Notes under the pieces: model-generated
What the model was told of the DNA's origin: nothing
Seen by the model: only the letters and a program-made list of their open reading frames with translations
Database searches by the model: none
Source: Halanaeroarchaeum sulfurireducens
GTDB lineage: Archaea > Halobacteriota > Halobacteria > Halobacteriales > Halobacteriaceae
Length of the DNA stretch: 64,000 nt
Assembly: GCF_001011115.1 (NCBI RefSeq)
Contig: NZ_CP008874.1
Span: 682,001 to 746,000, forward strand
Direction: 5' to 3'
Shown here: positions 33,839 to 42,831 of the stretch, in pieces
Numbering within the stretch: the first letter of the stretch is position 1
How the letters are laid out: every line of letters starts with the position of its first letter
Made by a program: the position numbers and the translations under genes

Positions 33839-33905
33839 TTGGGCCCCGTCACGGCGGACGATTGATCGGGACCCCGTCACGGAACGACTGATTGGGCCCC
33901 GTTCA
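33824..33905. repeat. Degenerate tandem repeat spanning the ferredoxin stop and reaching the phoU stop
   Basis: Three units of about 26-28 nt, starting CGGCGGACGACTAATT, CGGCGGACGATTGATC and CGGAACGACTGATTG, each continuing with GGGCCCC or GGACCCC and GTCA or GTTCA. The first unit contains the ferredoxin's last codons and its TAA; the other two show TGA at the same place; the third runs into the phoU stop. Confidence 0.8.
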
Positions 33906-34583
33906 GTAAATGAGCGCGTCGTCGTTTTCGACCATGTAGAGCGTGCGTGCCGCCACGTTGACCGCGTGATCGCCGACTCGCTCGAGGTCACGGATTGTGA
34001 GCAGGAGCCGCGAGACCTCGTGCATCAACATCTCGATGTCCTCCTCGGCCGTCTCCGCGTCGATTTCGCGTTCGATGAGGTCCCGGACGACCGTCTCCGA
34101 AGCGACCCGACACTCCTCGTCGAGGTCGCCATCGCGCTCGGAGATGGCAAAACACTGCTCGGCGTCCTCTTCTTTGTAGGCAATCATTGCGTTATCGACC
34201 ATCTCCAGGGTCGTGCTCCCGATGGACTGTATGTTGACCTCCGGGAACATGTCCCGTTCGGCTTCCAGGGTGTAATCGGCCAGGTTAACGGCCAGGTCGC
34301 CGATGCGCTCGAGGTCGGTGATGATCTTGAACGTCGCGGCGATGAACCGGAGGTCGGTTGCAACCGGCTGCTGGAGGGCGAGGAGGTCGACACAGTCCTT
34401 CTCGAGGTCGAGATAGAGTTCGTTTACTTCGTGGTCGCCTTCGATGACTTTTCTGGCGCGCTCGCGATCTTTTTGCTCCATCGCGTTGAGCGCAATTCGC
34501 AGTCGATCGATGACGACCTCGCTCATGTACAGGACGTCACTGCGCAGTTCGTCCAGTTGGTCCTGGTAGCTCTTGCGCGCCAT
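33903..34583 (-). CDS. phoU: Phosphate-signalling protein PhoU
   Basis: 226 residues made of two PhoU three-helix repeats. Metal-binding motifs are TDLERIGDLAVNLADY (first) and RDLERVGDHAVNVAART (second). Starts MARKSYQDQLDELRSDVLYMSE, a canonical PhoU N-terminus. Last gene of the pst operon, 5 nt after pstB; restrains the PstSCAB transporter and its signalling when phosphate is plentiful (family knowledge). Confidence 0.95.
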   Translation of the reverse strand: MARKSYQDQLDELRSDVLYMSEVVIDRLRIALNAMEQKDRERARKVIEGDHEVNELYLDLEKDCVDLLALQQPVATDLRFIAATFKIITDLERIGDLAVNLADYTLEAERDMFPEVNIQSIGSTTLEMVDNAMIAYKEEDAEQCFAISERDGDLDEECRVASETVVRDLIEREIDAETAEEDIEMLMHEVSRLLLTIRDLERVGDHAVNVAARTLYMVENDDALIY

Positions 34584-34588
34584 AATTA

Positions 34589-35434
34589 TTACCCGAACTT
34601 ACCCGTGATGTAATCTTCGACTCGCTGGCTCTCGGGGTTCTCGAATATTTTGTCGGTATCGTCGAACTCGACCAGCTCCCCGCCAGTGAGAAACACCGCG
34701 GTCTTATCGGAGATCCGTGCTGCCTGTTGCATATTGTGTGTGACAATCACGACCGTGTAGTCTTCAGCGAGTTCCTCGATGAGATCCTCTATCTGGCTCG
34801 TCGCCACCGGGTCGAGCGCCGACGCCGGTTCGTCCATCAGGATCACTTCCGGGTCCACCGCGATGGCACGCGCGATACAGAGCCGCTGCTGTTGTCCACC
34901 CGAGAGGTCGAGGCCGCTCTGGTCCAACTGCCCTTTGACCTCCTCCCACAGGGCGGACCGTCTGAGAGCGGTCTCGACCATCTCGTCGTAGTCCCCTTCT
35001 TTGCCCTGAATGTCGAGCCCGTAGGCGACGTTGTCGTAGATGCTCTTCGGGAAGGGGTTGGGCTTCTGGAAGACCATTCCGACTTGCCGACGGAGCGCGA
35101 CGGGGTCGACGTCGTCGTCGTACACGTTCTTTCCATGAAGGTACAGCTCACCCTCGACTCTGGCGGATTCGATCAGGTCGTTCATCCGATTGATGCTCCG
35201 GAGGAACGTCGACTTACCGCAGCCCGAGGGGCCGATGATGGCGGTGACCTTCCGTTCGGGAATCTCGAGATCCACGCCATTCAGGGCTTGCTCGTCATCG
35301 TAGTAGACGTTCAAATCCTCGGCCTTGATGACCGTTCGGTCGGGTCGGTCCGAACTCGCGGTGGTATTCGATACCGCCGGCGACTGCACCGACGTGTCCG
35401 AGAAGGGGTCCGGCGACCCGTTTTGTTCGCTCAT
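34589..35434 (-). CDS. pstB: Phosphate ABC transporter ATPase
   Basis: 281 residues. Walker [10 protein letters not shown], signature LSGGQQQRL, Walker [14 protein letters not shown], and switch His in [13 protein letters not shown]. Energises phosphate import. The N-terminal ~35 residues before [19 protein letters not shown] are Ser/Thr/Asp-rich and outside the domain. Follows pstA by 18 nt. Confidence 0.96.
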
Positions 35435-35452: not shown

Positions 35453-37075
35453 TCAGCGTTCATTTTCGTATCGGTTCCGCATCACGATCGCGATGGCGTT
35501 CATCGTCAACATCAGGGCGAGCAACACGACGGCCGTCGCCGCGACCACGCCGGTTCGGAATGCTGGTCTGGCGTTCGACGCCGAGGCAAAGATCTGTAGG
35601 GGGAGAGCGGTCGCACCGTCGAAGAGGCCGCTCGGCGGCGAGTAAGTCGTCGTGGCCACGGCGATGATGACGAGGGGCGCGGTCTCTCCGATGGCTCGTC
35701 CGAGCGCCAGGATGGTTCCGGTGAGGATGCCGGGGATCGACTCGGGGATAACCACCTCTCGAAGCGTCTGCCACCGACTCGCGCCCATCCCGTAGGAGGC
35801 CTGGCGCAGCGAGTCGGGCACCGACCGGATGGCCTCCTGGGCCGAGACGACCACGATCGGGAGGATCAACAGTCCGAGTGTTGCGGCGGCCGAGACCACG
35901 AGGCCGGGACCGAACCCGAGCGCGTTGCGGAACAGCGCCAGTCCGAGCAGGCCGTACACCACCGAGGGGACGCCGGCGAGGTTCGAGATGTTGACCTCCA
36001 GGACGGTTGCGAGCCACCCGCCGAGGCCTGTCGACGGGGCGTACTCCTCGAGGTAGATGGCCGCCCCTGCACCGATGGGGAACGCCATGATCGCCATGAA
36101 TCCGACGATGATTATCGACCCGACGATCTGCGGGTAGACGCCCGCGTTGCTGGCGGTCAGTCCGTCCCAGGAGTTCGTCAGGAGGGTCGGAGTCAGATAG
36201 CCGTCGGGCCCTCGAATGGCGAGGGTCCGTTCGATCGCCACACCGACGAGGACTCCACCGAGCACCACCAGGGGTCCCAGGACGCCGACTGTTCCCTCTC
36301 TTTTGATGGCGATTTCGTCGACAGCCACGTAGCCGAACGGGACGACGCCGGCCGAAAAGAGAACGATCCAGAACGATGGCTCGATGTCCACGGCGATGCC
36401 GGCCACGGCAATGAGAAGGGCGCCGGCGAGCACGACGGCGGCGGCAAGGAGGCCCTGGCGGTTCGACCGACGACGGGCCGTCCAGCCCCCGACGACCATG
36501 GCGACCGGGACTGTGATGAGCAGAAGGTAGGCGATCCACTGGGCCAACACGCCAACGAAGGGCCGAAGGCCCGCGTAACTCACGGCCCCGAAGGCGAGTC
36601 CCCCAACGATGGAGAGCGGAATCGACGGGCCGATGTAGGTGGTGGCACCCGTCCGTCGTCCGACCGCCCACACCAGCACGGGGGGAACGGTCGCGAACGC
36701 GGCGTAGATCAACACGTCGTACGGGCTGAGGGCATCGATGACCACGAACGCGGCGAGGGCGAGTACGGTCCCGCCGAACGCCGCCGTGAATGCCCTTGCG
36801 TTGGCGTCCCTGGCAGCCGGTCGCTTGCGGACGTAGAGTGTGTACACGGCCGTGGGGGTGACCACGGTGCCGAGGTACACGACAAACCACTGCGGCGACG
36901 CGGCGAAGGGACCGACGGCGTCGACGGTGATCTGGGCAAAGAGGAGCACCAACGAGAGGATGCCGACCAGCGTCGCCGCGATCAGTGACACCTCGAACAG
37001 CTGTCCCTTGAGTCGTGCGATCCTGAGCCGTCTCCCGCCGCTGTAATCCAGTTCCGGGTCGCTTTCGGCGGCCAT
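35453..37075 (-). CDS. pstA: Phosphate ABC transporter permease, enlarged PstA
   Basis: 540 residues against about 290 in bacteria. The C-terminal ~250 residues are the permease proper (AIMAFPIGAGAAIYLEEYA, VYGLLGLALF, and the ATPase-contact EAIRSVPDSLRQASYGMGAS). The N-terminal half adds roughly seven hydrophobic segments, including YLGTVVTPTAVYTLYVRKR and a cluster of basic and small residues, with no motif I recognise. The ATG overlaps the pstC stop by one base. Confidence 0.9.
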   Translation of the reverse strand: MAAESDPELDYSGGRRLRIARLKGQLFEVSLIAATLVGILSLVLLFAQITVDAVGPFAASPQWFVVYLGTVVTPTAVYTLYVRKRPAARDANARAFTAAFGGTVLALAAFVVIDALSPYDVLIYAAFATVPPVLVWAVGRRTGATTYIGPSIPLSIVGGLAFGAVSYAGLRPFVGVLAQWIAYLLLITVPVAMVVGGWTARRRSNRQGLLAAAVVLAGALLIAVAGIAVDIEPSFWIVLFSAGVVPFGYVAVDEIAIKREGTVGVLGPLVVLGGVLVGVAIERTLAIRGPDGYLTPTLLTNSWDGLTASNAGVYPQIVGSIIIVGFMAIMAFPIGAGAAIYLEEYAPSTGLGGWLATVLEVNISNLAGVPSVVYGLLGLALFRNALGFGPGLVVSAAATLGLLILPIVVVSAQEAIRSVPDSLRQASYGMGASRWQTLREVVIPESIPGILTGTILALGRAIGETAPLVIIAVATTTYSPPSGLFDGATALPLQIFASASNARPAFRTGVVAATAVVLLALMLTMNAIAIVMRNRYENER

Positions 37076-38076
37076 TACTCGTACGCCTCCCTGAAGTACT
37101 GCCTGACGATTTCGGCGAGAATGTTCATGAAGAGGGTGATGACGAACAGCGTCATGCCGAGTGCGAACATCGCCTCGTACGTGACCCCGCCCAGCGAGTC
37201 GGCCTGGGCGATCTGGACCATGGCCGCGGTGATGGTCTGTCCCGATTCGGCCAGATTTCTGAGGACGTTCGGGAAGTACGGCATCTGTGAACTCATCCCC
37301 ATCGCCATGGTGACCGCCATCGTCTCCCCGATGGCCCGGGAGATCGCCAGGACGTACGAGGAGACGATCCCGGAGGTCGCGGCGGGGACGACGATCTTCG
37401 TCGAGACGTCGAACTTCGTCGATCCGAGGCCGTAGCCCGCCTGCCGAAGGCTATCGGGAACCGCGTTCAGGGCGTCCTCGCTGATCGAGGAGACCATCGG
37501 GATGATCATGATGCCAACCACGATGCTCGCGGAGAGGACGTTGAACGTCCGGAGTTCGGGAACGTAGAAGGTGAACTCCGGGAGGACACCGACGCCGGCG
37601 GGGATCACCGTGACGGATATCGGGAGCACGGACTGGAACGCCGGCGTGATGTACACCAGCGCCATGTATCCGTAGATGACCGTTGGAACCCCCGCGAGGA
37701 TCTCGAGGGCGGGTTTGAGGTACGATCGCGCCCGGTCGCTGGCGTATTCGCTGAGGTAGATGGCGGCTGCGAGGCCGATCGGTAACGCGATGATTGCCGA
37801 GAAGACCGTCACGAGGAGGGTTCCGCTCACGAGCGGCAGGACCCCATACGCATTGCCGATGATGGGACTCCACGTCGTTCCGGTGAAGAAGGCGACCGGC
37901 GATACTTCGAGGAAGAACGTGATCGTGCGACCCGACAGCGAGAGGACGATTCCCACAGTGATCAGTATCGTGAGAAGCGCGCTCGTGGAGAACAGGAGCT
38001 TGTAGAGACGCTCTTTACGGACCACGAAGTCCTCGCGCGAGAGCGGTATCTCGTCGGGCTGTGGGGTCCCACTCAT
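37075..38076 (-). CDS. pstC: Phosphate ABC transporter permease PstC
   Basis: 333 residues, about six to seven transmembrane helices. ATPase-coupling loop EDALNAVPDSLRQAGYGLGS and the export/import core IYGYMALVYITPAF are typical. Follows pstS by 56 nt and overlaps pstA by one base (TAATG), so subunits are made together. Confidence 0.95.
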   Translation of the reverse strand: MSGTPQPDEIPLSREDFVVRKERLYKLLFSTSALLTILITVGIVLSLSGRTITFFLEVSPVAFFTGTTWSPIIGNAYGVLPLVSGTLLVTVFSAIIALPIGLAAAIYLSEYASDRARSYLKPALEILAGVPTVIYGYMALVYITPAFQSVLPISVTVIPAGVGVLPEFTFYVPELRTFNVLSASIVVGIMIIPMVSSISEDALNAVPDSLRQAGYGLGSTKFDVSTKIVVPAATSGIVSSYVLAISRAIGETMAVTMAMGMSSQMPYFPNVLRNLAESGQTITAAMVQIAQADSLGGVTYEAMFALGMTLFVITLFMNILAEIVRQYFREAYE

Positions 38077-38132: not shown

Positions 38133-39107
38133 TCAGCCCGTGTACTCCTCGAGGGCCGTGAGGTTCTCGTCGACCATCTCCTGGCTGCTCGGAACGTACC
38201 CGATTTCGGAGGCCACGAAGTCCTCTGCGGCCGATTCGACGTAGAACCGGATAAACTCCTGGAGGTGGGGTTTCGCCTGGAGTTTCTCGCTGTTGGCGTA
38301 GAAGAAAAGCGGCCGGGCGAGGGGATAGTTGCCGCTCTGTGCGCCCTCGAGGCTGGGCGCGACGGGGTCGGACCCCTCCTCGCTCAACGCGAGTGCCTTT
38401 ACGGTGTCCGGGTTGTTCGTGTAGTACGCGAAGGGCAGATAGCCCATGGCGTATCGGTTACCCTCCACCCCCTGGGCGATGAGATCGTCCTCCTCGGTCC
38501 CCTCGAAGTCGGACCGGATCTTGCCCTCCTCGCCGATCACCGTCTCCGTGAAGTAATCGAAGGTACCCGAGGTCGTCGCCGGGCCGTAGAGGTCGAACGG
38601 TTCGTCCGGCCATTCCTCGTTGACGTCCGACCACGACTCGGGACTGGTCTCCGGAGACCAGATTTCCTTGAGTTCCGCCAGCGTGATCGAGTCCATCCAG
38701 TCGTTTTCGTTGTTGACGACCACCGTGAGTGCGTCCTGGGCGATGAAGAACTCGACCGGCGTGAAGCCGTTGTCCTCGCAGGCCTGGATTTCTTCCTCGG
38801 CGATCGGCCGACTCGCGTTGTTGATGTCGCTGTCGCCAGGGATGAAGACGTTCTTGAATCCGCCGCTGCTACCGTCGCGGGTCAGATCGAAATTCACGTC
38901 GGGGTGGTCCCGGGCGAACCGTCGGGACATCTCCTGGGCGATCGGGTACACCGTGCTGCTGCCCGAGATGCGAATGTCTCCCGAGAGCGAATCGCCGTTC
39001 CCTGGTGCCTGGTCCGACGTACACCCAGCGAGCGCGATTGCACCCGCAACGCCGGCGCTCGCCACGAACGATCGTCGAGACACCCTGCCGGTATCGGTTT
39101 CTGGCAT
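38133..39107 (-). CDS. pstS: Phosphate-binding lipoprotein PstS (Tat substrate)
   Basis: 324 residues. Twin-arginine signal RVSRRSFVASAGVAGAIALA followed by lipobox LAGC: exported folded and lipid-anchored. Phosphate-site blocks are SGSSTVYPIAQEM, TRDGSSGGFKN and GPATTSGTFDYF. A GTG one codon upstream is possible, but the ATG at 39107 sits 27 nt from the TATA-like box. First gene of the pst operon. Confidence 0.95.
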   Translation of the reverse strand: MPETDTGRVSRRSFVASAGVAGAIALAGCTSDQAPGNGDSLSGDIRISGSSTVYPIAQEMSRRFARDHPDVNFDLTRDGSSGGFKNVFIPGDSDINNASRPIAEEEIQACEDNGFTPVEFFIAQDALTVVVNNENDWMDSITLAELKEIWSPETSPESWSDVNEEWPDEPFDLYGPATTSGTFDYFTETVIGEEGKIRSDFEGTEEDDLIAQGVEGNRYAMGYLPFAYYTNNPDTVKALALSEEGSDPVAPSLEGAQSGNYPLARPLFFYANSEKLQAKPHLQEFIRFYVESAAEDFVASEIGYVPSSQEMVDENLTALEEYTG

Positions 39108-39130
39108 CACCTGTATCGAAACGAGGTCCG

Positions 39131-39138
39131 AATAAGTA
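39131..39138 (-). promoter_or_regulatory. TATA-like box of the pst operon
   Basis: Minus-strand TACTTATT centred about 27 nt upstream of the pstS ATG. Confidence 0.6.
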
Positions 39139-39152
39139 CTCTGCTATGATGA

Positions 39153-39170
39153 CTATATAGACGAATATAG
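39153..39170. promoter_or_regulatory. Inverted repeat upstream of the pst TATA box
   Basis: CTATAT-AGACGA-ATATAG, a perfect 6-bp inverted repeat with 6-nt spacer, placed 15-39 nt upstream of the pst TATA box. Candidate site for a phosphate-responsive activator; no protein identified. Confidence 0.6.
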
Positions 39171-39301
39171 AGTGTACAACCGAAACTCTCCTGCTCCACC
39201 CGTTGTCCGTGGTGGGTCCTACCTCGGCAGACACTCACACGAACGAGCTGCGATGGTAGTGGTCCGACGCGTCCGATCGCAAGAACCGATCTACGCTAGC
39301 T

Positions 39302-39329
39302 ATATAGATTACGCACAAGATCTATATTT
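39302..39329 (+). promoter_or_regulatory. Inverted repeat over the TATA box of the AbrB-PhoU gene
   Basis: ATATAGA (39302-39308) and TCTATAT (39321-39327) are perfect complements 12 nt apart. The right arm is also the TATA box (TCTATATTT), centred 26 nt before the ATG at 39351, so a bound factor would block the promoter. Confidence 0.6.
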
Positions 39330-39350
39330 CATTGGCCCCTTCCCCTCCTC

Positions 39351-40355
39351 ATGGACAGACGAAAAGTGCAGGTCACCGGCGGTTCGACGTTTACCGTTTC
39401 GATCCCGAAGGAGTGGGCCGACGATCGGGATCTCGCCGCCGGCGACGAGGTGGGATTCCTCGCGGACAGCGGTTCGCTGTTGCTCACGCCGACCCCTGAC
39501 GGTGACGTCGACGAGGGGACCCTCGACATCGAAGATCTGGACGAAGAGGACCTCAGACGTGCAGTGATGACGATGTACGTGAGCGGGTTCGACGTCATCA
39601 GGCTGACGTCGGATCGGATTAGCGCCTCGCAGCGACGGGTCATCAGGAACGCGGCCCAGGGACTCGTCGGCCTGGAGATATTGGAGGAAACGACCGACCG
39701 GGTGGTCGTTCGGGACCTCCTCGATTCCTCAGAGCTGTCGATTCACGACGCCGTGGGGCGGATGCGCCTCATCGCGCTCTCGATGCTCGACGATGCGATC
39801 ACGGCATTACGACGCGGTGACGTCGAACTGGCCGCGGACGTGATCGAGCGCGACGACGACGTCGACCGCCTCTGGTACGTCGTTTCCCGCATTTTCCGCG
39901 GCGCGCTCCGATCGCCACGGATCGCCCAGGAGATCGGCCTTCCCCGGGAGGATTCGTTCGATTATCAATCCAGTGCACGACAGCTCGAGCGCATTGCCGA
40001 CCACGCCGCGAAGATCAGCCACGTGCCCCTGGAGATGGAGGGGGACGTTCCACAGGAGGTGGGCGCGTCGCTCTCGGAACTCCACGAGGCGGCCGCCACC
40101 GTCGTCGATACCGCGATGGACGCTCTGTTCACGGACGACCCGGAGCGCGCGATGGAGCTGGCGAACGAAGCACGCAGAAAGGTCGATGCCGTCGACGACC
40201 TGGTCCGTTCGACCGACGATCTTCTCCGGGACCTGGAGCCAAGACAGGCCCAGCGGATCGGGCTTGTCGTCGACTCGCTTTCCCGGAGCGCGGACTACGG
40301 CGGGAACGTCGCGGAGACCGCCCTCCAGATGGCCGCACCGGCGCCGAACCCGTAA
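39351..40355 (+). CDS. AbrB-PhoU phosphate uptake regulator
   Basis: 334 residues. N-terminal SpoVT-AbrB DNA-binding domain (1-50: RRKVQVTGGSTFTVSIPKEW), then two PhoU-like repeats (about 115-220 and 235-330: SARQLERIADHAAKI and DSLSRSADYGGNVAE). This haloarchaeal architecture combines a DNA-binding domain with PhoU sensing. It is divergent from pstS, and the two share a 240-nt region with similar A+T-rich inverted repeats, so it is the best candidate for binding them (inference). Confidence 0.88.
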   Translation: MDRRKVQVTGGSTFTVSIPKEWADDRDLAAGDEVGFLADSGSLLLTPTPDGDVDEGTLDIEDLDEEDLRRAVMTMYVSGFDVIRLTSDRISASQRRVIRNAAQGLVGLEILEETTDRVVVRDLLDSSELSIHDAVGRMRLIALSMLDDAITALRRGDVELAADVIERDDDVDRLWYVVSRIFRGALRSPRIAQEIGLPREDSFDYQSSARQLERIADHAAKISHVPLEMEGDVPQEVGASLSELHEAAATVVDTAMDALFTDDPERAMELANEARRKVDAVDDLVRSTDDLLRDLEPRQAQRIGLVVDSLSRSADYGGNVAETALQMAAPAPNP

Positions 40356-41317: not shown

Positions 41318-41363
41318 GAGTGATAGTCGCTACTCGCCCGAACGGAAAAGCGATTTGGGTACC

Positions 41364-41470
41364 GGAATCAGTGCTTGGGTGGCACCTGGGGACTGGAATC
41401 AGTGCTTGGGTGGCACCTGGGGACTGGAATCAGTGCTTGGGTGGCACCTGGGGACTGGAATCAGTACTTG
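41364..41470. repeat. 31-bp tandem repeat, three full and one partial unit
   Basis: Units begin at 41364, 41395, 41426 and 41457 with GGAATCAGTGCTTGGGTGG and continue CACCTGGGGACT; the full units look identical. The partial fourth unit enters the last codons of the second geranylgeranyl reductase gene, with one base changed (GTACTT for GTGCTT). Read on the gene's strand each unit repeats the gene's final codons and TGA stop. Confidence 0.95.
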
Positions 41471-42831
41471 GGTGTCGCGTCACTGATGTCGTAGACGTCC
41501 TCGAGGACCTCGTCGCGACGATCGCGCCAGTCCTCGAACCCGGCGGGGCTTCTGGGATAGTCGTCGTAGATGGATTTCAACTCGGCGGCCTTCCGGTGAA
41601 CCCGATAGAGTTCAGCGATCGTTCGCCAGTGGCCGAACGTCCCGACGAGCGTCTGGAGTTTCATCCCGAGCCCCATCGCCTCGGTGCCGCCTTCAGAGAG
41701 GGTATCGATGAGTGCCTGACCCGGGATTGCCGTGATAATACTCGTGAGTTCGTCGACGTCGTGGGCGGTGGCCCAGATGTTGTAGACGTCGATGGCCGCA
41801 AACCGCTTCCCGAAGTTCGTCATGACGTCCCGGTTGTACTTCCAGAGGGCGGCCTCGCTCGGATCGCCCTCCTCGAGGGCCGTAACGATCTCCTTTGCGG
41901 CCCAGTGACCGGCCTTCGCCGCGCCGGGAATTCCCCCACCCGTCGCTGGGTTGACGTGGGCAGCGGCGTCGCCGACGGCCACGTAGCCAGGTGCGACCGC
42001 GGAGTCGTAGGGCCGTCGGGTGGGCAGGGCCGCCCCGAGTTTGTTCACGACCGTGGCGTTCTCGAACTCGGGACGGGCCTGGAGATCGCGCTTGAGGGCG
42101 TCGACGAGCTGTATCGGTTGCTGGTCCATCTGAAAGCCCAGTCCCGCGTTGATCGTCGTCTCGTCGCGGGGGAAGTACCACAGATACCCCAGCTCCTCGG
42201 TCGGGGTGAAGACGATGGCATCGTCGTAGTCGACCGGTTCGTCGACCTCGATGATCTCCCGGTAGGCCGAGCAGTACTGCTGATAGCTGACGTTCGTATC
42301 GAAGGTCGAATTTTCGAAGTCGACCCTGTCCTGGAGGATCGACAGTGAACCGGCGGCGTCGACGACGACGTCGCCCTCGTAGGTTTTCGGCTCGCCGTTC
42401 CGAGAGGCGGTGACGCCAACCACCTGCCCGTCCTCCTGAAGGACGTCCTGGACGACCGTATCGAAGCGGACGTCAACACCGACGCGGTCGGCTTCCTCCA
42501 GCAGCACTTCCCCGTAGCGTTTGCGGTCGACGACCGCACCGCTCTCGTCGAATGGGATGTCGAGCGATTCCCCGGTCTGTGGGTTCTCGAATCGGGCGTG
42601 GCGGATGTTCTCGTTCGTAAACGCCTCGTTTCGGAGGTACTCCCGGTCGATCACGTCGGGGAAGGTACTCTTTCCCTTGATCGCGTCGCCGCACGCGATG
42701 TTGCCGGCCTCCTCTTCGGGTTTGCGTTCCAGCAGCACGACGTCCAGGCCGGCATCGGCAACTGTCGCCGCCGCAAAGACACCGCCAGTCCCGCCGCCGA
42801 CGACGACCACGTCGTGTGTTTCCGCGCTCAT
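41461..42831 (-). CDS. Geranylgeranyl reductase family flavoprotein (copy 2)
   Basis: 456 residues; FAD site VVVGGGTGGVFAAATVADAG, EEEAGNIACGDAI and VGDAAAHVNPATGGGIPGA. Paralogue of the copy at 31539, same length and C-terminal layout (DVYDISDATPKY against DIYAVTGAEPKY). Substrate is probably a polyprenyl chain of a lipid or quinone. Its 3' end is the source of the 31-bp repeats. Lies downstream of korAB, beyond a T-tract. Confidence 0.88.
   Translation of the reverse strand: MSAETHDVVVVGGGTGGVFAAATVADAGLDVVLLERKPEEEAGNIACGDAIKGKSTFPDVIDREYLRNEAFTNENIRHARFENPQTGESLDIPFDESGAVVDRKRYGEVLLEEADRVGVDVRFDTVVQDVLQEDGQVVGVTASRNGEPKTYEGDVVVDAAGSLSILQDRVDFENSTFDTNVSYQQYCSAYREIIEVDEPVDYDDAIVFTPTEELGYLWYFPRDETTINAGLGFQMDQQPIQLVDALKRDLQARPEFENATVVNKLGAALPTRRPYDSAVAPGYVAVGDAAAHVNPATGGGIPGAAKAGHWAAKEIVTALEEGDPSEAALWKYNRDVMTNFGKRFAAIDVYNIWATAHDVDELTSIITAIPGQALIDTLSEGGTEAMGLGMKLQTLVGTFGHWRTIAELYRVHRKAAELKSIYDDYPRSPAGFEDWRDRRDEVLEDVYDISDATPKY

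Follow-up and report, generated by a model that had tools for sequence, protein, structure and literature searches.

The pst operon and the divergent AbrB(MazE)-PhoU gene of a haloarchaeal genome of 2.2 Mb carry in their promoters the same 8-bp palindrome, CTATATAG, which probably serves the AbrB-PhoU protein (gene at 39351-40355) as operator, both at its own gene and at pst. Both copies lie in the 240 bp intergenic region between pstS (minus strand) and the regulator gene (plus strand), in the 64,000 nucleotide stretch of this genome that was analysed (the window). A first-pass annotation of this DNA had proposed regulatory sites shared by pst and the divergent gene; this proposal is supported, in that the same box is found on both sides and recurs in relatives. 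The gene context described there, a divergent pair of pstS and AbrB-PhoU, is also correct, as confirmed by gene reading and profile matches.

The pst operon is read leftward from 39107 to 33903 in the order pstS-pstC-pstA-pstB-phoU. It encodes the phosphate-binding lipoprotein PstS (38133-39107; TIGR02136, 253.8 bits, cut-off 206.6), the PstC permease (37075-38076; TIGR02138), the PstA permease (35453-37075; TIGR00974 on residues 293-536 of 540), the PstB ATPase (34589-35434; TIGR00972, 386.5 bits) and, as the last gene, a PhoU without a DNA-binding domain (33903-34583; TIGR02135, 161.8 bits), all on the minus strand and all above the respective cut-offs. PstA has a long N-terminal extension, with approximately 290 additional residues ahead of the family-matching region. 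The start of pstS should be the ATG at 39107 rather than the GTG at 39110, judging from the conservation of the ATG across relatives, and the gene is probably leaderless at this codon. The regulator gene (39351-40355, plus strand) encodes a 334 amino acid protein with a Pfam MazE_antitoxin domain (residues 7-49) and PhoU domains.

Box A (39153-39160) is the copy of the palindrome in the pst promoter and box B (39300-39307) the one in the regulator's own promoter. Two of the seven copies of CTATATAG in the genome thus fall in these 240 bp, while shuffling of the region gave a mean of 0.01 copies and never two in 500 shuffles. No phosphate gene is evident in the vicinity of the five other copies, and a single CTATATAG was for this reason rejected as insufficient, alone, to mark a genome-wide regulon. 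On the pst side the palindrome is part of a composite box of 20 bp, CTATATAG-N5-ATAGCAG (39141-39160, minus strand; plus-strand reading CTGCTATGATGACTATATAG), which adjoins the TATA box ACTTAT (39132-39137, minus strand; ATTTAT in most relatives) at a fixed distance that is conserved. The second element, in its general form ATAGYAG, is confined to the pst side, where it stands against the TATA box at the place expected for a BRE, and it could be here that the pst and regulator promoters differ in their response. In the regulator promoter the TATA box is CTATATT (39322-39328, plus strand), with ATTTAT at the corresponding place in most relatives.

The sites had at first been described as two spaced inverted repeats, forming a switch in which pst is activated and the regulator gene repressed. 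Both repeats do exist to the letter, each once in the window: CTATAT-N6-ATATAG at 39153-39170, upstream of the pst TATA box, and ATATAGA-N12-TCTATAT at 39302-39327. Their left arms belong to one and the same palindrome, CTATATAG. The definitions fail at the second arms: ATATAG (39165-39170, plus strand) is not conserved as such and overlaps a weakly conserved TA step, and TCTATAT (39321-39327) coincides with the TATA box of the regulator gene. In literal form the first repeat is present in one of 67 pstS regions and the second in one of 111 regulator regions, in both cases solely at this locus, with one loose match in a congener. Inverted repeats with arms of at least 6 occurred twice in the region compared to 0.9 per dinucleotide shuffle (P=0.23), and with arms of 7 once compared to an expected 0.25 (P 0.22). 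Given this chance-level frequency and the lack of conservation of the second arms, the literal repeats were rejected as a functional unit; as exact structures they are mostly coincidence, and coincidence is likely for their second arms. Neither can opposite effects be deduced from site position, since the centres of boxes A and B are at nearly equal distance from the start codons (49.5 bp and 47.5 bp, respectively, thus about 48-50 bp for both). A switch of this kind, for which the existence of the literal repeats and the ordinary occurrence of negative autoregulation in such regulators can be adduced, is thus improbable.

Conservation was assessed on upstream regions of the orthologous regulator gene, read in 30 relatives and then at 80 loci, and on 67 haloarchaeal pstS upstream regions collected by a protein motif, independently of the box. 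Box A is found in 42 of the 67 pstS regions, and in an alignment of 56 regions the information content at its positions 2-7 is 1.65-2.0 bits. For the composite box, 50 of the 67 scored 13 or more out of 15, compared to 39 of 4000 windows drawn at random from these loci, some of the 39 being real sites; the remaining 17 pst promoters scored below 13. The exact form CTRCTAT-N5-CTATATA gave 58 matches in 55 of 116 Halobacteriales genomes, with zero matches for the reversed control. Out of thirty loci with the composite box that were read, 28 had it directly before a Tat-lipoprotein PstS. The suggestion of the first-pass annotation to search for the motif before other phosphate genes is therefore borne out, the composite box being a marker of pstS promoters. 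The two other loci had the box before a low-molecular-weight phosphatase or arsenate-reductase-like gene, and a third such case was found elsewhere. In these cases (L161, L169 and L130, genus g20) the composite box is just upstream of the arsenate-reductase-like ORF, which in one g20 genome is followed by the gene of an ArsR-type regulator. Control of arsenate handling by phosphate would be sensible, since arsenate can enter through Pst. The existence of the boxes, the constancy of their geometry and their association with pstS and AbrB-PhoU genes are read from the compared sequences themselves. That the whole be a functionless coincidence of AT-rich DNA, for which the chance-level number of inverted repeats as such might speak, has next to no probability, as strong conservation and gene specificity in more than 100 genomes refute it for the CTATATAG core.

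In 84 of 111 haloarchaeal genomes the regulator gene has TATATA[G/T] at the place of box B, 30-75 bp ahead of its start codon, compared to 93 of 2220 shuffles. Control genes of the same loci carry it in 14 of 204 cases (Fisher P about 1e-37, uncorrected for kinship). As the box on this side, the best match within a narrow interval was taken, by which the apparent per-position conservation is inflated; shuffles and control genes put through the identical best-match test fall short of the regulator box. These controls also bear on the idea that CTATATAG is a second, alternative TATA box serving a leadered transcript and not an operator. TATATA does resemble archaeal TATA boxes, and the two are easily confused in AT-rich genomes. 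Each promoter, however, has its own TATA box at leaderless distance, the flanking C/G and the fixed N5-ATAGYAG are conserved without being required by TFB/TBP, and the motif occurs in 6% of control genes of the same genomes, all of which leaves this explanation very improbable. A search of eight genomes for TATATAG-N6-12-TTTAT, which combines the box with the TATA spacing, retrieved the regulator gene itself and otherwise scattered matches. An element CTATATAGCGAAATAC(A/G)GTTTAT is conserved in two genera just beyond the 3' end of a tyrosine-recombinase gene (G000:C1:1287964-1287971, L036/L180; L182), with no evident protein gene downstream of it, and is possibly the promoter of a small RNA or a recombination site.

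Relatives of AbrB-PhoU are present in most of the phylum sample, and are often divergent from pst. The last 130 bp before 57 non-haloarchaeal orthologues (best match per genome) were scanned, and CTATATA or TATATAG was found before 35 of them, compared to 9.3 expected from shuffles; 18 of the 57 had at least two boxes, compared to 1.6. The spacing of paired boxes is most often 11 or 19-20 bp, corresponding to approximately one or two helical turns. As archaeal TATA boxes could mimic the box, a control set of 207 other genes was taken from 20 of these genomes; 12 of them had one box and none had two. In twelve of the sixteen non-haloarchaeal families the box is present in at least half of the genomes; no box was found in three families of four, five and two genomes, and a further family has it in one of four genomes. 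At least two matches are also present before 8 of 20 AbrB-PhoU paralogues, several of them with the full CTATATAG. Before pstS, 18 of 28 non-haloarchaeal regions have a match within 250 bp, an interval wider than that of the controls, some of the matches being the full palindrome. The genomes are related to each other, so that none of these counts are independent.

In haloarchaea the two kinds of site are maintained separately: the composite box is preserved at pst operons located away from the regulator gene (L139-L148), and regulator genes without an adjacent pst retain theirs (L020, L021). A diffusible factor should therefore act on both. In some haloarchaea the AbrB-PhoU gene is present as two close copies (G030:C3:322000 and 190964; G056:C1:2320394 and 2765200); both copies of G056 are accompanied by a divergent pstS of their own, each with an exact composite box. 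The box follows the AbrB-PhoU family and not the neighbourhood of pst, which supports the AbrB-PhoU protein as binder and self-regulator; this is consistent with the first-pass annotation, in which the AbrB domain of the protein was already named as a possible binder. Conservation of a box before a gene does not prove that the product of that gene binds there. The boxes might be true pho-boxes bound by another transcription factor, with AbrB-PhoU merely co-regulated and its AbrB domain otherwise employed, and haloarchaea do have several AbrB-PhoU paralogues and many other regulators. Against this, the box precedes orthologues and paralogues of AbrB-PhoU throughout the phylum, be pst near or not, and we regard another binder as unlikely.

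The AbrB-PhoU orthologue is present in 114 of 116 Halobacteriales genomes, including all 96 of good quality. Its N-terminal AbrB/MazE domain matches PF04014 with 34.9 bits (cut-off 24.7), with a weak match to TIGR01439 below the cut-off, and is of the type of the AbrB/MazE/SpoVT factors (Pfam MazE_antitoxin), here fused to PhoU. The PhoU domains match PF01895 with 87.7 bits, and their fold is related by Foldseek to PhoU crystal structures with a TM score of up to 0.81 by target length. The match to the classical PhoU family TIGR02135 is 67.2 bits, below the cut-off of 130.25, and going by these profiles the protein is a fused relative and not a classical PhoU. Residues 3-23 of the AbrB domain show 94% mean column identity, compared to 76-81% for the domains as wholes. 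In a monomer model residues 1-50 have a pLDDT mostly under 70, and this low-confidence structure of the AbrB domain was considered too uncertain to be used as an argument. A lead from the AbrB-fold protein Sso7c4, which had been mixed with CCTATATAGG (PMC5222340), was rejected: the binding tests of that study used other palindromes, the crystals were without DNA and the affinity was compared with that of nonspecific binders.

From these data we infer the protein that binds, the sensing step and the sign of control as follows. AbrB-PhoU, probably as a dimer, would bind box B in its own promoter and the composite box of pst through its N-terminal AbrB domain, and on the pst side ATAGYAG would cover the expected BRE place beside the TATA box. 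The PhoU part may sense phosphate sufficiency, perhaps by contact with the Pst transporter, with an effect on binding or on promoter recruitment; pst would thereby be turned on when phosphate is scarce, and the regulator gene would control itself. Assisted recruitment of TFB/TBP at pst in starvation appears somewhat more likely than repression in plenty through occlusion of the BRE, as activation in starvation best fits the report on the pho-box of Halobacterium salinarum.

Furtwangler et al. are said to have described in 2010 this pho-box (P-box) in the pst1 and pst2 promoters of H. salinarum R1. According to another report, the pho-boxes in both pst promoters of H. salinarum are essential for upregulation (PMC6560208), and this cis element of haloarchaeal pst promoters is there likewise attributed to PhoU regulators. 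The P-box may be identical in sequence to CTATATAG-N5-ATAGYAG. In H. salinarum DSM 3754 the pst promoter beside the regulator gene deviates from the composite box by one mismatch (CTGCTATTACGTATATATAG); more generally, haloarchaeal pst promoters have a conserved element immediately ahead of the TATA box, as expected of a pst pho-box promoter. Deletion of phoU in H. salinarum, the gene being unspecified in the part of the report available, changes growth even in standard conditions (PMC5605881). In Haloferax volcanii a PhoU with an N-terminal DNA-binding domain (HVO_2374, PhoU2) is encoded beside pstS1 (HVO_2375), and it is known from hypochlorite-tolerant transposon mutants and not from promoter work (PMC6267482). 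In a related Haloferax (L067), pstS is preceded by the exact composite box and the regulator gene by a box as well.

The bacterial PhoR-PhoB-PhoU/Pst system with its PHO boxes similarly combines Pst and PhoU with a starvation regulon that has pst at its head. It differs in its box and in that here the DNA-binding domain is fused to PhoU, so that sensing and DNA binding may reside in one AbrB-PhoU protein; furthermore a search of six genomes yielded no full-length PhoB, nearly all matches being to the receiver domain only and none exceeding the cut-off. We give about even chances to the wider view that AbrB-PhoU is a one-component phosphate regulator, a DNA-binding PhoU, which replaces PhoR-PhoB in most of the phylum, with CTATATAG as its recognition site before its own gene, before pst and, in one genus, before an arsenate-reductase-like gene. 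The pst pho-box is already published for H. salinarum; the self-box of AbrB-PhoU, the full palindrome and the spread beyond haloarchaea were not found in a literature search covering sources outside the subscription journals, and may tentatively be taken as new. Phosphate sensing in archaea without PhoR-PhoB is poorly known, and with a candidate operator of 8 bp, a promoter unit of 20 bp and one candidate protein the question becomes testable, the boxes being conserved in genetically tractable haloarchaea and related ones in methanogen-side families of the phylum.

Beyond the regulator gene, a 31-bp unit, TGGGGACTGGAATCAGTGCTTGGGTGGCACC, is repeated in tandem at positions 41356-41474 of the window (3.8 copies, 96% matches). 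The array has an aldo/keto reductase gene on one side and, on the other, the 3' end of the next leftward gene, into whose last codons it extends.
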